Assembly (NCBI RefSeq): GCF_042477335.2 | Contig: NC_091255.1 | Coordinates: 41,456,501-41,520,500, forward strand | Length of the DNA: 64,000 nt | From: Ovis canadensis | Lineage: Eukaryota > Chordata > Mammalia > Artiodactyla > Bovidae | Direction: 5' to 3' | Shown: positions 8,693 through 46,508 of the stretch, piece after piece | Layout: every line of letters starts with the position of its first letter | Numbering within the stretch: position 1 is the first letter of the stretch | Translations under genes and position numbers: made by a program | The notes under the pieces: model-generated | Database searches by the model: none | What the model saw: only the letters and a program-made list of their open reading frames with translations | Told to the model about the DNA's origin: nothing

Positions 8693-11268
8693 TGTTCAGT
8701 TCAGTCACTCAGTCGTGTCCAACTCTTTGTGACCCCATGAACCACAGCATGCCAGGCCTCCCTATCCATTATGAATTCCCGGAATCCACCCAAACCCATG
8801 TCCATTGAGGCGGTGATGCCATCCAACCATCTCATCCTCTGTCATCCCCTTCTTCTCCTGCCCTCAATCTTTCCCAGCATCAGGGTCTTTTCCAATGAGT
8901 CAGCTCTTCGCATGAGGTGGCCAAAGTATTGGCATTTCAGCTTCAACATCAGTCCTTCCAATGAACACCCAGGAATGATCTCCTTTAGGATGGACTGGTT
9001 GGATCTCCTTGCAGTCCAAGGGACTCTCAGGAGTCTTCTCCCAACACCACAGTTCAAAAGCACCTTTGGCGCTTAGCTTTCTTTATAGTCCAACTCTCAC
9101 ATCCATACATGACTACTGGATAAATCATAGCCTTGACTAGACGGACTTTTCTTGACAAAGTAATGTCTCTGCTTTTTAATATGCTGTCTAGGTTGGTCAT
9201 AACTTTTCTTCCAAGGAGTAAGCGTCTTCTCATTTCATGGCTGCAATCACCATCTGCAGTGATTTTGGAGCCCCCCAAAATAAAGTCAGCCACTGTTTCC
9301 ACTGTTTCCCCATCTATTTGCCAGAAAGTGATGGGACCAGATGCCATGATCTTAGTTTTCTGAATGTTGAGCTTTAAGCCAACTTTTTCACTCTCCTCTT
9401 TCACTTTTATCAAAAGGCCCTTTAGTTCTTCTTCACTTTCTGCCATAAGGGTGGTGTCATCTGCATATCTGACATTATTGATATTTCTCCCGGAAGTCTT
9501 GATTCCAGCTTGTACTTCATTCAGCCCAACATTTCTCATGATGTACTCTGCATAGAAGTTAAATAAGCAGGGTGACAATATACAGCCTTGACATACTCTA
9601 ATTCCTATTTGGAACCAGTCTGTTGCTCCATGTCCAGTTCTAACTGTTGCTTCCTGACCTGCGTACAGGTTTCTCAAGAGGCAGGTCAGGTGGTCTGGTA
9701 TTCCCATCTCTCTCAGAATTTTCCACAGTTTATTGTGATCCACATAGTCAAAGGCTTTGGCATAGTCAATAAAGCAGAAATAGATGTTTTTCTGGAACTA
9801 CCTTGCTTTTTCGATGATCCAGCGGATGTTGGCAATTTGATCTCTGGTTCCTCTGCCTTTTCTAAAACCAGCTTGAACATCTGGAAGTTCACGCTTCACG
9901 TATTGCTGAAGGCTGGCTTGGAGAATTTTGAGCATTACTTTGCTAGCGTGTGAGATGAGTGCAACTGTGCAGTAGTTTGAGCATTCTTTGGCATTGCCTT
10001 TCTTTGGGATTGGAATGAAAACTGACCTTTTCCAGTCCTGTGGCCACTGCTGAGTTTTCCAAATTTGCTGGCATATTGAGTGCAGCACTTTCACAGCATC
10101 ATCTTTTAGGATTTGAAATAGCTCAATTGGAATTCCATCACCTCCACTAGCTTTGTTCATAGTGATGCTTCCTAAGGCCCACTTGACCTCACATTCCAGG
10201 ATGTGCAGCTCTAGGTGAGTGTGAGTGATCACACCATCGTGATTATTGGGTCATGAAGATCTTTTTGTACAGTTCTGTGTATTCTTGCCACTTCTTCTTA
10301 ATATCTTCTGTTTCCATTAGCTCCATAATATTTCTGTTCTTTATTGAGCCCATCTTTGCATGAAATGTTCCCTTGGTATCTCTAATTTTCTTGAAGAGAT
10401 CTCTAGTCTTTCCCATTCTATTGTTTTCCTCTATTTCTTTGCATTGATCACTGAGGAAGGCTTTCTTATCTCTCCTTGCTATTCTTTGGAACTCTGCATT
10501 CACATGGGTATACCTTTCTTTTCTCCTTTGCTTTTCACTTCTCTTCTTTCCACAGCTATTTGTAAGGCCTCCTCAGACAGCCATTTTGCTTTTTTGCATT
10601 TCTTTTTCTTGGGGATGGTCTTGATTCCTGTCTCCTGTACAATGTCATGAACCTCCATCCATAGTTTATCAGGCACTCTGTCTATCAGATCTAGTCCCTT
10701 AAATCTATTTCTCACTTCCACTGTATAGTTATAAGGGATTTGATTTAGGTCATACCTGAATGGTCTAGTGGTTTTCCCCACTTTTTTCAATTTAAGTCTG
10801 AATTTGGCAATAAGGAGTTCATAATCTGAGCCATAGTTAGCTCCTGGTCTTGTTTTTGCTGACTGTATAGAGCTTCTCCATCTTTGACTGCAAAGAATAT
10901 AATCAATCTGATTTCGTGTTGACCATCTGGTGATGTCCATGTGTAGAGTCCTCTCTTGTGTTCTTGGAAGAGAGTCTTTGCTATGACCAGTGCATTCTCT
11001 TGGCAGAAGTCTATTAGCCTTTGCCTTGCTTCATTTTGTATTTCAAGGCCAAATTTGCCTCTTACTGCAGGTATCTCTTGCCTTCCTACTTTTGCATTTC
11101 AGTCCCCTATAATGAAAAGGACATCTTTTTGGGGTGTTAGTTCTAGAAGGTCTTATAGGTCTCCATAGAACCATTCAAATTCAGCTTCTTCAGTGTTACT
11201 GGTCGTGGCATTGACTTGGATTACCATGATATTGAATGGTACCTTGGAAACCAACAGAGATCATTCTG
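8693..11268 (-). mobile_element. BovB (RTE-clade) LINE, 5'-truncated, about 2.6 kb
   Basis: The longest uninterrupted BovB in the window, antisense, with its 3' end at the left (GTTCAGTTCAGTCACTCAGT). Decayed reading frames run right to left: endonuclease C-terminal part (10500-10940), linker (10243-10503), then reverse transcriptase in two pieces (9798-10232 and 9054-9743). The RT keeps the YADD catalytic motif but frameshifts and stops split the ORF, so it is dead. A full-length BovB is about 3.2 kb; the first part of the endonuclease is missing. BovB is known to have entered ruminant ancestors horizontally, probably from squamates. Confidence 0.95.
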
Positions 11269-42903: not shown

Positions 42904-43564
42904 TGGACCTGACATTCCAGCTTCCTATGCAATACTGCTCTTTACAGCATCGGACCTTGCTTCCATCACCAGTCACATCCGCAACTGGGTGTTGTTTTTG
43001 CTTTGGCTCCATCCCTTCATTCTTTCTGGAGTTATTTCTCCACTGATCTTCAGTAGCATATCGGGCACCTACCCACCTGGGGAGTTCATCTTTCAGTGTC
43101 CTATCTTTCTTCCTTTTCATACTGTTCATGGGGTTCTCAAGGCAAGAATACTGAAGTGGTTTGCCATTCCCTTCTCCAGTGGACCACATTCTGTCAGACC
43201 TCACCATGACCCGTCCATCTTGGGTGGCCCCACATGGCATGGCTTAGTTTCATTGAGTTAGACAAGGTCTGTGTGATCAGATTGGCTAGTTTTCTATGAT
43301 TGTGGAACAACAGACTGGTTCCAAATAGAAAAAGGAGTTCGTCAAGGCTGTATACTGTCATCCTCCTTATTTAACTTATATGTAGAGTACATCATGAGAA
43401 ACGCTGGGCTGGAAGAAGCACAAGCTGAAATAAACTTTGCTGGGAGAAATATCAATAACCTCAGATGTGCAGATGACACCACCCTAATGGCAGAAAGTGA
43501 TGAAGAACTAAAGAGCCTCTTGATGAAAGTGAAAGAGAAGAGTGAAAAAGTTGGCTTAAAGCTC

Positions 43565-45781
43565 AGTTCAGTTTAGTTCAGTCACTCAGTCGTGTCCAAC
43601 TCTTTGAGACCCCATGAATCGCAGCACACCAGGCCTCCCTATCCATCACCAACTCCCGGAATTTACCCAAACTCATGTCCATTGAGTAGGTGATGCCATC
43701 CAACCATCTCATCCTCTGTCATCCCCTTCTCCTCCTGCCCTCAATCTTTCCCAACATCAGGGTCTTTTCCAAGGAGTCAGCTCTTCACATCAGGTGGCCA
43801 AAGTATTGGAGTTTCAGCTTCAACATCAGTCCTTCCAATGAATACCCAGGACTGATCTCCTTTAGGATGGACTGGTTGGATCTCCTTGCAGTCCAAGGGA
43901 CTCTCAAGAGTCTTCTCCAACACCACAGTTCAAAAGCATCAATTCTTCTGCACTCAGCTTTCTTTATAGTCCAACTCTCACATCCATACATGACTACGGG
44001 AAAAACCATAGCCTTGACTAGATGGACCTTTCTTGACAAAGTAATGTCCCTGCTTTTTAATATGCTGTCTAGGTTGGTCATAACTTTCCTTCCAAGGAGT
44101 AAGCGTCTTCTCATTTCATGGCTGCAATCACCATCTGCAGTGATTTTTGAGGCCTAAAAAATAAAGTCAGCCACTGTTTCCCCATCTATTTGCCATGAAG
44201 TGATGGGACCAGATGCCATGATCTTAAGTTTTCTGAATGTTGAGCTTTAAGCTAACTTTTTCACTCTCCTCTTTCACTTTCATCAAGAGGCTTTTTAGTT
44301 CCTCTTCACTTTCTGCCATAAGGGTGATGTCATCTGCATATCTGAGGTTATTAATATTTCTCCCGGCAATTTTGATTCCAGCTTGTGCTTCTTCCAGCCC
44401 AGAGTTTCTCATGATGTACTCTGCAGAGAAGTTAAATAAGCAGGATGACAATATACAGCCTTGACGTACTCCTTTTCCTATTTGGAACCAGTCTGTTGTT
44501 CCATGTCCAATTCTAACTGTTGCTTCCTGACCTGCATACAGATTTCTCAAGAGGCAGGTCAGGTGGTCTGGTATTCCCATCTCTCTCAGAATTTTCCACA
44601 GTTTATTGTGGTCCAGTCAAAGGCTTTGGCATAGTCAATAAAGCAGAAATAGATGTTTTTCTGGAACTCTCTTGCTTTTTCCATGATCCAGCAAATGTTG
44701 GCAATTTGATCTCTGGTTTCTCTACCTTTCCTAAAACCAGCTTGAACATCTGGAAGTTCATACTTCACGTATTGCTGAAGCCTGGCTTGGAGAATTTTGA
44801 GCATTACTTTGCTAGCGTGTGAGATGAGTGCAACTATGCGGCAGTTTGAGCATTCTTTGGCATTGCCTTTCTTTGGGATTGGAATGAAAACTGACCTTTT
44901 CCAGTCCTGTGGCCACTGTTGAGTTTTCCAAATTTGCTGACATATTGAGTACAGCACTTTCCCAGCATCATCTTTTAGGATTTGAAATAGCTCAACTGGA
45001 ATTCCATCACCTCCACTAGCTTTGTTCGTAGTGATACTTTCTTTTTTTTCTTCAGTCTCAGATACTTTTATTTTTAACACTAGAAATTACAAACACTGTC
45101 TGCATACAGGCATAAATTTGCAGTTGAACTAATGCAATGTAAAGTTTTCATTACGTTAAAAACTCAAATTCTAGAAGAATTAAGAATGTCTGCTCTTATT
45201 CCAATGTGAAGAGAAATAGAAAAATATGCACATACCAATGAAAAGGCTGCATGTGTGGCTACTTTAGAAACTAAAATATTTTTGTTTAATTCTTGTCTTT
45301 CCTCATTAATAATATCCATACCTTTACAAAAGATCCCCAAAATGAGGATTAAGAGTATTTAATCAATTATGAATCTGCCACTTTAGGTAGAGCTTTTCAA
45401 TTAGCTCTCTCTCTCTCTCTCAAAGTGGATCATAACTCCAGAAAGGGGTTAGCAGTGGTTTTCCTGGGGGTGGGGTCTGCTGCTGCTGCTAAGTCGCTTC
45501 AGTCGTGTCCGTCTCTGTGCGACCCCATAGATGGTAGCCCACCGGGCTCCCCATCCCTGGGATTCTCCAGGCAAGAATACTGGAGTGGGTTGCCATTTCC
45601 TTCTCCAGTAGTGATACTTTCTAAGGCCCACTTGACTACACATTCCAGGATGTCTGGCTCTAGGTGAGTGATCACACCATCGTGATTATCTGGGTCATGA
45701 AGATCATTTTTGTATAGTTCTTCTATGTATTCTTGCCACCTCTTCTTAATATCTTCTGTTTCTGTTAGGTCCATACCATTT
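43565..45781 (-). mobile_element. Second BovB LINE, antisense, inserted into the first
   Basis: Its 3' end is at the left (AGTTCAGTTTAGTTCAGTCA). The RT frame is in pieces at 44586-45042 and 44224-44580 with YADD, and it is 5'-truncated at the right. CTTAAAGCTC at 43555-43564 and 45782-45791 is the duplication, and the outer BovB sequence is continuous across it. Confidence 0.9.
45043..45607 (-). mobile_element. Retroposed Bov-A monomer with downstream sequence and poly(A)
   Basis: Flanked by the perfect 15-bp duplication GTAGTGATACTTTCT (45028-45042 and 45608-45622). On the minus strand it starts with one Bov-A monomer (45607 down to about 45478, ending in AGCAGCAGCAG). About 430 bp of non-repeat sequence with a (GA)n run follows, then AATAAA (45072-45067) and a short poly(A) at 45049-45043. 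It is either a SINE transcript with 3' transduction or a 5'-truncated retrocopy of an mRNA 3' UTR. Confidence 0.82.
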
Positions 45782-46508
45782 CTTAAAGCTCAACATTCAG
45801 AAAACTAAGACCATGGCATCTGGTCCCATCAGTTCATGGCAAATATGGCAATCAGATGGGAAAACAGTACAAACAGTGGCTGACTTTATTGGCGGGGGGG
45901 GGCCTCCAAAATCATTCCAGATGGTGATTGCAGCCATGAAATTAAAAGACACTTTTCCTTCCGTGGAAGGAAAGTTATGACCAACCTAGACAGCATATTA
46001 AAAAGCAGAGACATCACTTTGTCAACAAAGGTCCATTTAGTCAAGGATATGGTTTTTCCAGTGGTCATGTATGGATGTGAGAGTTGGATTACAAAGAAAG
46101 CTGAGTGCAGAAGAATTGATGCTTTTGATCTGTGGTGTTGGAGAAGACTCTTGAGAGTCCCTTGGACTGCAAGGAGATCTAACCAGTCCATCCTAAAGGA
46201 GATCAGTCCTGAGTATTCATTGGAAGGACTGATGTTGAAGCTGAAACTCCAATACTTTGGCCACCTGATGTGAAGAGCTGACTCATTTGAAAAGACCCTG
46301 ATGCTGGGAAAGATTGAGGGCAGGAGGAGAAGGGGATGACAGAGGATGAGATGGTTGGATGGCATCACCTACTCAATGGACATGAGTTTGGGTAAACTCC
46401 GGGAGTTGGTGATGGACAGGGAGGCCTGGCATGGTGCAGTTCATGGGGTCTCAAAGAGTTGAACATGACTGAGTGACTGAACTGAACTGAACTGATCACC
46501 ACTTACTC

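Follow-up and report, generated by a model that had tools for sequence, protein, structure and literature searches.

Structure of the insert and its insertion site

The stretch of DNA that we analysed, a 64-kb window of the Ovis canadensis genome (C11:41456501-41520500), contains a 565-bp insert on the minus strand of a BovB LINE (Table 1). The repeats of the window are named here BovB, Bov-A2 and Bov-tA by their fit to the cited papers. On the minus strand, the insert opens with TGGAGAAGG, the first bases of a Bov-A monomer (45607-45478); this monomer is of the second-monomer type, which bears the (AGC)n tail of Bov-A2 and follows monomer 1 in the Bov-A2 dimers of the 64-kb window. A Bov-A2 SINE insertion mobilised by BovB ends at this tail, and the insert instead runs 435 bp past it, through sequence with no other match within the window.

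The initial annotation had described a perfect 15-bp duplication bounding a segment that begins at the start of a Bov-A monomer, continues through unique sequence with a (GA)n run, and carries AATAAA about 17 nt before a short poly(A). All of these elements are present, the poly(A) being a run of seven A. The pre-insertion plus strand at the nick reads ...GATACTTTCT/AAGG..., one mismatch away from the TTTT/AA type of site that is the consensus for nicking by the L1 endonuclease, and the alignments reveal no microhomology at the 5' junction of the insert. The duplication is the longest word common to both 100-bp flanks and lies beyond chance, since in 500 plain letter shuffles the flanks never shared a word longer than 9. 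Its length also falls within the range of about 8-30 nt expected for L1-mediated processed retrocopies, as given for target-site duplications (TSDs) in a passage of PMC5322556.

The insert forms the third layer of a nested structure at window positions 43303-46495, where a plus-strand BovB is broken by a minus-strand BovB that is flanked by a TSD of 10 bp; twin priming of the host BovB, an earlier candidate explanation for the opposed BovB pieces, was replaced by this nested insertion. Removal of the insert and one copy of its own duplication restores a reading frame in the host BovB (...ALESITTNKASGG...) that matches Pfam RVT_1 (E 1.3e-10). Additionally, a related BovB copy at 8694-10335 runs uninterrupted across the insertion point and thus provides a paralogous empty site.

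Table 1. Coordinates of the insert, its host element and the relatives of its source (window positions unless a contig is named)
Feature	Position	Strand	Remarks
BovB LINE receiving the insert	43566-45782	-	Nested in another BovB; TSD TTAAAGCTCA at 43556-43565 and 45783-45792
TSD copy 1	45028-45042	.	15 bp, perfect direct repeat
TSD copy 2	45608-45622	.	15 bp, perfect; plus-strand first-nick site TTTCT/AAGG
Whole insert, probable retrocopy of C28:67239560-67240123 (distal part, presumably of the CHIC1 3'UTR)	45043-45607	-	Source match, alignment
Bov-A2 monomer 2 with (AGC)n tail	45478-45607	-	Start exactly at the first bases of the monomer
435-bp part: sequence that follows the SINE at the source locus, with the A-tail	45043-45477	-	Two places in the genome
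(GA)n run	45405-45421	-	Present in the source too, with small differences
AATAAA polyadenylation signal	45067-45072	-	Also in the source; 17 nt before the A-tail
7-A tail	45043-45049	-	Source has GAATAATATTTT at the same point, so the tail is non-templated
Relative 1	C28:34043244-34044593	-	1.08 kb of upstream sequence (96%) and whole Bov-A2 as in the source
Relative 2	C3:158240055-158240405		82 bp of upstream sequence and Bov-A2
Relative 3	C8:19261310-19261601		About 30 bp of upstream sequence and Bov-A2

The source on C28 and the CHIC1 gene

Within the 2.97-Gb assembly of 42 contigs that contains the window, a search identified C28:67239560-67240123 as the only other near-full-length match among the best 40 of 3468 candidates scored, covering positions 1-560 of the 565-bp query at 95% identity. 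The alignment is colinear and has no intron-sized gap, with 5 mismatches over the 117 positions of the monomer (4.3%) and 15 over the 424 of the unique part (3.5%). The order at the source is a Bov-A2, then the same unique sequence, then AATAAA; this is the single locus with Bov-A2 immediately upstream that the initial annotation had named as the mark of a transduction. Its concern that the 430-bp segment might belong to a known repeat family was not borne out: the unique part occurs at two places in its own genome (two scored candidates), the insert and the C28 source, and is therefore no repeat family. The same part had no match among viral contigs and phage records, a comparison that is uninformative for ruminants.

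In the source, the Bov-A2 has a monomer 1 short of about 15 bases at its start, joined by a linker to an intact monomer 2, and a short duplication (AGACCCCATC / AGACCCCACC) flanks the element. Because of the bases missing from monomer 1, the start of the insert can derive only from monomer 2 of the source, and the same gap led us to reject unequal recombination between the two monomers as the origin of that start. Where cleavage took place, the copy has GACTGAAGAAAAAAA against GACTGAATAATATTTT in the source; the source has no A-run there, and the poly(A) of the insert was therefore added to RNA. The proposal that the segment moved as one unit is thus supported, with RNA as the intermediate.

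A protein probe, the human CHIC1 sequence, located CHIC1 exons 1-5 in order on the plus strand at C28:67198197-67236981, and exon 3 occurs only once in the genome. In sense orientation, the source begins 2.6 kb beyond exon 5, and from its position, its strand and its poly(A) site it would be the distal part of the CHIC1 3'UTR, with CHIC1 mRNA as the probable template. A match to the 3'UTR of a spliced gene had been put forward in the initial annotation as the sign of an mRNA retrocopy; the sense position past exon 5 agrees with it, and against it stands the final coding exon of CHIC1, of about 15 residues, which a short-peptide search did not find in the parent region examined. No exon junction lies within any copy seen, and the copied stretch itself contains none. 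CHIC1 flanks Xist in eutherians, according to a passage of PMC2430539, and for this reason we take C28 to be the X chromosome and CHIC1 to be X-linked.

A search for the Erf4 family (PF10256) did not match the CHIC1 locus; among the matches listed, the Erf4-family loci resembled the parent region only in repeats, and the CHIC1 probe matched none of these loci. One of these loci, C2:175161584-175161811, has four internal stops and is perhaps a pseudogene; it too went unmatched by the CHIC1 probe. Two further features were noted by eye downstream on C28: open reading frame pieces resembling ARHGEF6/ARHGEF7 at 67298774-67301850, possibly a retrocopy, and minus-strand pieces resembling an endogenous retrovirus at 67250874-67253236, about 11 kb downstream of the source.

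Origin of the insert

L1 commonly makes partial retrocopies of mRNAs, and the insert resembles 5'-truncated, L1-mediated processed pseudogenes in the L1-like length of its duplication, its L1-like nick, its poly(A) following AATAAA and its copying at the level of RNA. It differs from them in holding only sequence that we take to be 3'UTR, and in having its 5' end exactly on a SINE monomer boundary. We consider it likely that the insert is a 5'-truncated copy of the distal CHIC1 3'UTR made by L1. A Bov-A2 would first have landed, in sense, in the 3'UTR of CHIC1 on C28, the presumed X chromosome, and a polyadenylated transcript would later have run through it to the downstream AATAAA. Reverse transcription would then have begun from the poly(A) of this transcript at an L1-type nick in the BovB on C11, and synthesis would have stopped exactly where monomer 2 of the Bov-A2 begins. 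Both the 15-bp duplication and the TTTCT/AAGG nick fit L1 as the probable machinery. The insert would be of the L1 type despite its BovB-type SINE, because RTE LINEs have a microsatellite at their 3' end and L1 has a poly(A) tail, as described in part of PMC8620236.

The weak point of truncation as the cause of the 5' end is the exact stop on the monomer-2 boundary, for which we estimate the chance of a coincidental hit at under 1%, counting about 4 notable boundaries of 3 nt each within about 1.9 kb. Initiation at monomer 2, or some other cause specific to this site, is thus still a live reading. Monomer 2 has its start in the 5' arm of a 9-bp stem in the predicted fold of the source RNA, a fold within the ordinary range (z -1.8). 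A stop of the reverse transcriptase at this hairpin was rejected, since a block there would leave the end further 3', an argument to which a predicted fold lends weak evidence.

Alternatively, the 5' end could be a transcription start, with Pol II initiating at the first base of the source's monomer 2 and reading across the (AGC)n tail to the poly(A) signal, and with L1 mobilising the full-length transcript as a 3' transduction. The insert starts exactly with the monomer even though the source has a linker and monomer 1 upstream, the source has a SINE immediately 5' of the transduced sequence, and Bov-A2 has been suggested to be transcribed by Pol II (PMC4324840). How often monomer 2 stands on its own bears on this question, and we examined two sets of units. 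One was a sample of 39 rows, besides the insert and the source, that match from the first base over at least 129 bases; it was chosen by likeness to the insert monomer and represents the best-scored part of 3468 candidates. Upstream sequence was read for 38 of these rows, the 39th (C6:72425146) lying inside the locus L046 as monomer 2 of its dimer. The linker is present upstream of monomer 2 in 37/39 and absent in two, L008 and L046, which share the start base of the insert. At L008 (C17:65272403-65272533), a linker-less monomer 2, a short spacer and a whole Bov-A2 dimer lie within one TSD (GGAACCAGAG) and run into further sequence. At L046 (C6:72425434-72425565), a linker-less monomer 2 likewise precedes a Bov-A2 dimer, and ATACTGYATT occurs three times. 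As both units directly precede dimers, and L046 has a threefold duplication, neither counts as a clean insertion of a monomer; the two may go back to monomeric masters or to rearrangement.

The other set comprised 12 monomer-2 BLAST matches, the source included, from the window and 200 kb of C28 with at least 3 AGC in their last 45 bases, two Bov-tA-like matches (by eye) and the insert being set aside. Ten are dimers, one is a monomer with a monomer-1-like start, and one is a monomer-2-only Bov-A at C28:67147117-67147247 that has the exact start of monomer 2, no linker and a perfect 10-bp TSD (GGCATCTGCT). Against initiation at monomer 2, other copies derived from this source have their 5' ends elsewhere, upstream of the SINE. 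We regard a transcript initiated at monomer 2 as unlikely, and as less likely than a 5'-truncated retrocopy. Of the two origins named in the initial annotation, 3' transduction and truncated mRNA retrocopy, each holds in part, and we prefer the truncated retrocopy. Its suggestion that a SINE transcript had read through to a downstream poly(A) site is unlikely in a Pol III form, given six T runs of at least 4 in the sense strand of the insert and the proposal, by Onami and colleagues as cited in a passage of PMC4324840, that Bov-A2 lacks a Pol III promoter and is transcribed by Pol II; the exact monomer-2 start still favours initiation at the SINE.

The template might also have been a sense transcript other than CHIC1 mRNA, either a product of intronic polyadenylation or an independent non-coding RNA. 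The lack of an exon junction in any copy seen and the failure to find the last coding exon would suit such a transcript; position, strand and poly(A) site fit the last exon of CHIC1, however, and we think this origin quite improbable. A jump of the L1 reverse transcriptase from the mRNA to a separate Bov-A RNA would place a small repeat RNA at the 5' end of an mRNA fragment, an arrangement known in outline from chimeric retrogenes. In its favour, two other Bov-A2 monomers (on C5 and C11) match the insert monomer at 98%, better than the 112/117 of the source, a point that also counts against the retrocopy reading. At 3 of the 5 monomer differences between source and insert, the insert has the common letter. 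However, the monomer already adjoins the unique part at the source locus, and the two have diverged to a similar degree. Moreover, in an alignment of 50 monomers (38 rows of the similarity sample, 10 others, the copy and the source), C65 and A74 occur together only in copy and source and in none of the other 48, the C5 and C11 monomers having C65 without A74. Such a chimera is very improbable. A duplication of the locus at the level of DNA would account for the colinearity of insert and source, and we give it hardly any credence in view of the TSD, the non-templated poly(A) ending at the poly(A) site and the clean insertion in BovB.

Relatives of the source and the possible use of two reverse transcriptases

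Searching with the source and its upstream sequence, we found three further derived copies. The relative at C28:34.04 Mb ends at (AGC)3 without poly(A) and is flanked by a 5-bp duplication, ATGAA. It is a clean insertion, because seven copies of the surrounding repeat (called BovB by eye) in 200 kb of C28 run through its site with the 4-5 shared bases present once. The C3 and C8 relatives also end in an (AGC)n-type tail without poly(A), and no clear TSD was found at either. C65 and A74 are both present in all three relatives, which differ from the source at 6 of 167 positions in the part compared (C28:34.04 Mb), 25 of 351 (C3) and 23 of 304 (C8). A search with the upstream sequence alone returned, besides the gene, the C28 copy and the C3 relative, nine short matches to one simple-repeat stretch. 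These features give good support to the C28:34.04 Mb relative being a BovB-type copy begun at the SINE tail, in effect a 5' transduction, and the C3 and C8 relatives are likely to be BovB-type copies of the same transcript, begun in the same way and with the same effect. Since the relatives carry sequence upstream of the SINE, RNAs covering that region existed, and 5' truncation suffices.

Parallels to this family exist in other mammals. The platypus composite known as snoRTE resembles it in that an RTE-type 3' end makes the transcript a template, which fits the three relatives ending in (AGC)n. This element, in which a snoRNA is combined with the 3' end of an RTE, is described in part of PMC5322556 as a retroposition master, whereas the CHIC1 family has few copies, derives from what is likely a protein-gene 3'UTR and exhibits 5' truncation. 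Alu and B1 elements embedded in 3'UTRs have been proposed as helpers of processed pseudogenes, and the same passages of PMC5199112 report no such excess for other SINEs and an under-representation of non-Alu SINEs in human. There, as here, the retrocopied mRNA is one that carries a SINE in its 3'UTR; in the case of Alu and B1, both SINE and pseudogene use L1, whereas the CHIC1 insert joins a BovB-type SINE to an L1-type tail. The transductions of L1 and SVA, as described in parts of PMC4862182 and PMC13174262, similarly move unique flanking sequence with a mobile element, the element in the CHIC1 insert being a Bov-A2 SINE. A passage of PMC4862182 states that no Alu-mediated transductions had been reported as of 2016, and we found no Bov-A2 transduction among the matches listed in the open-licence PMC literature.

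The insert itself is an ordinary non-coding fragment of a known kind; less ordinary is that one ruminant source appears, by the look of the ends, to have been used by two machineries. We see an even chance that, in ruminants, an mRNA with a Bov-A2 in its 3'UTR becomes a template for two reverse transcriptases, that of BovB starting from the SINE tail and copying upstream gene sequence (C28:34.04 Mb, C3 and C8), and that of L1 starting from the poly(A) and copying downstream sequence (the C11 insert). In this respect, PMC8620236 counts ruminants with the small number of placental mammals in which two LINE clades are potentially active, and describes the BovB-dependent SINEs as all but immobile in present-day giraffe and as showing no active copying in cattle. 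One source with three BovB-type-tailed relatives and one L1-type-tailed copy lets the two machineries be compared in nature for the RNA end that each uses. Such a source also raises the genome-wide question of whether genes bearing a sense Bov-A2 in their 3'UTR have copies ending exactly at the SINE tail. If such copying is general, it would amount to a second gene-copying route in ruminants while BovB was active, given the some 150,000 Bov-A2 elements of cattle (149,118 were used in the work described in PMC8620236).
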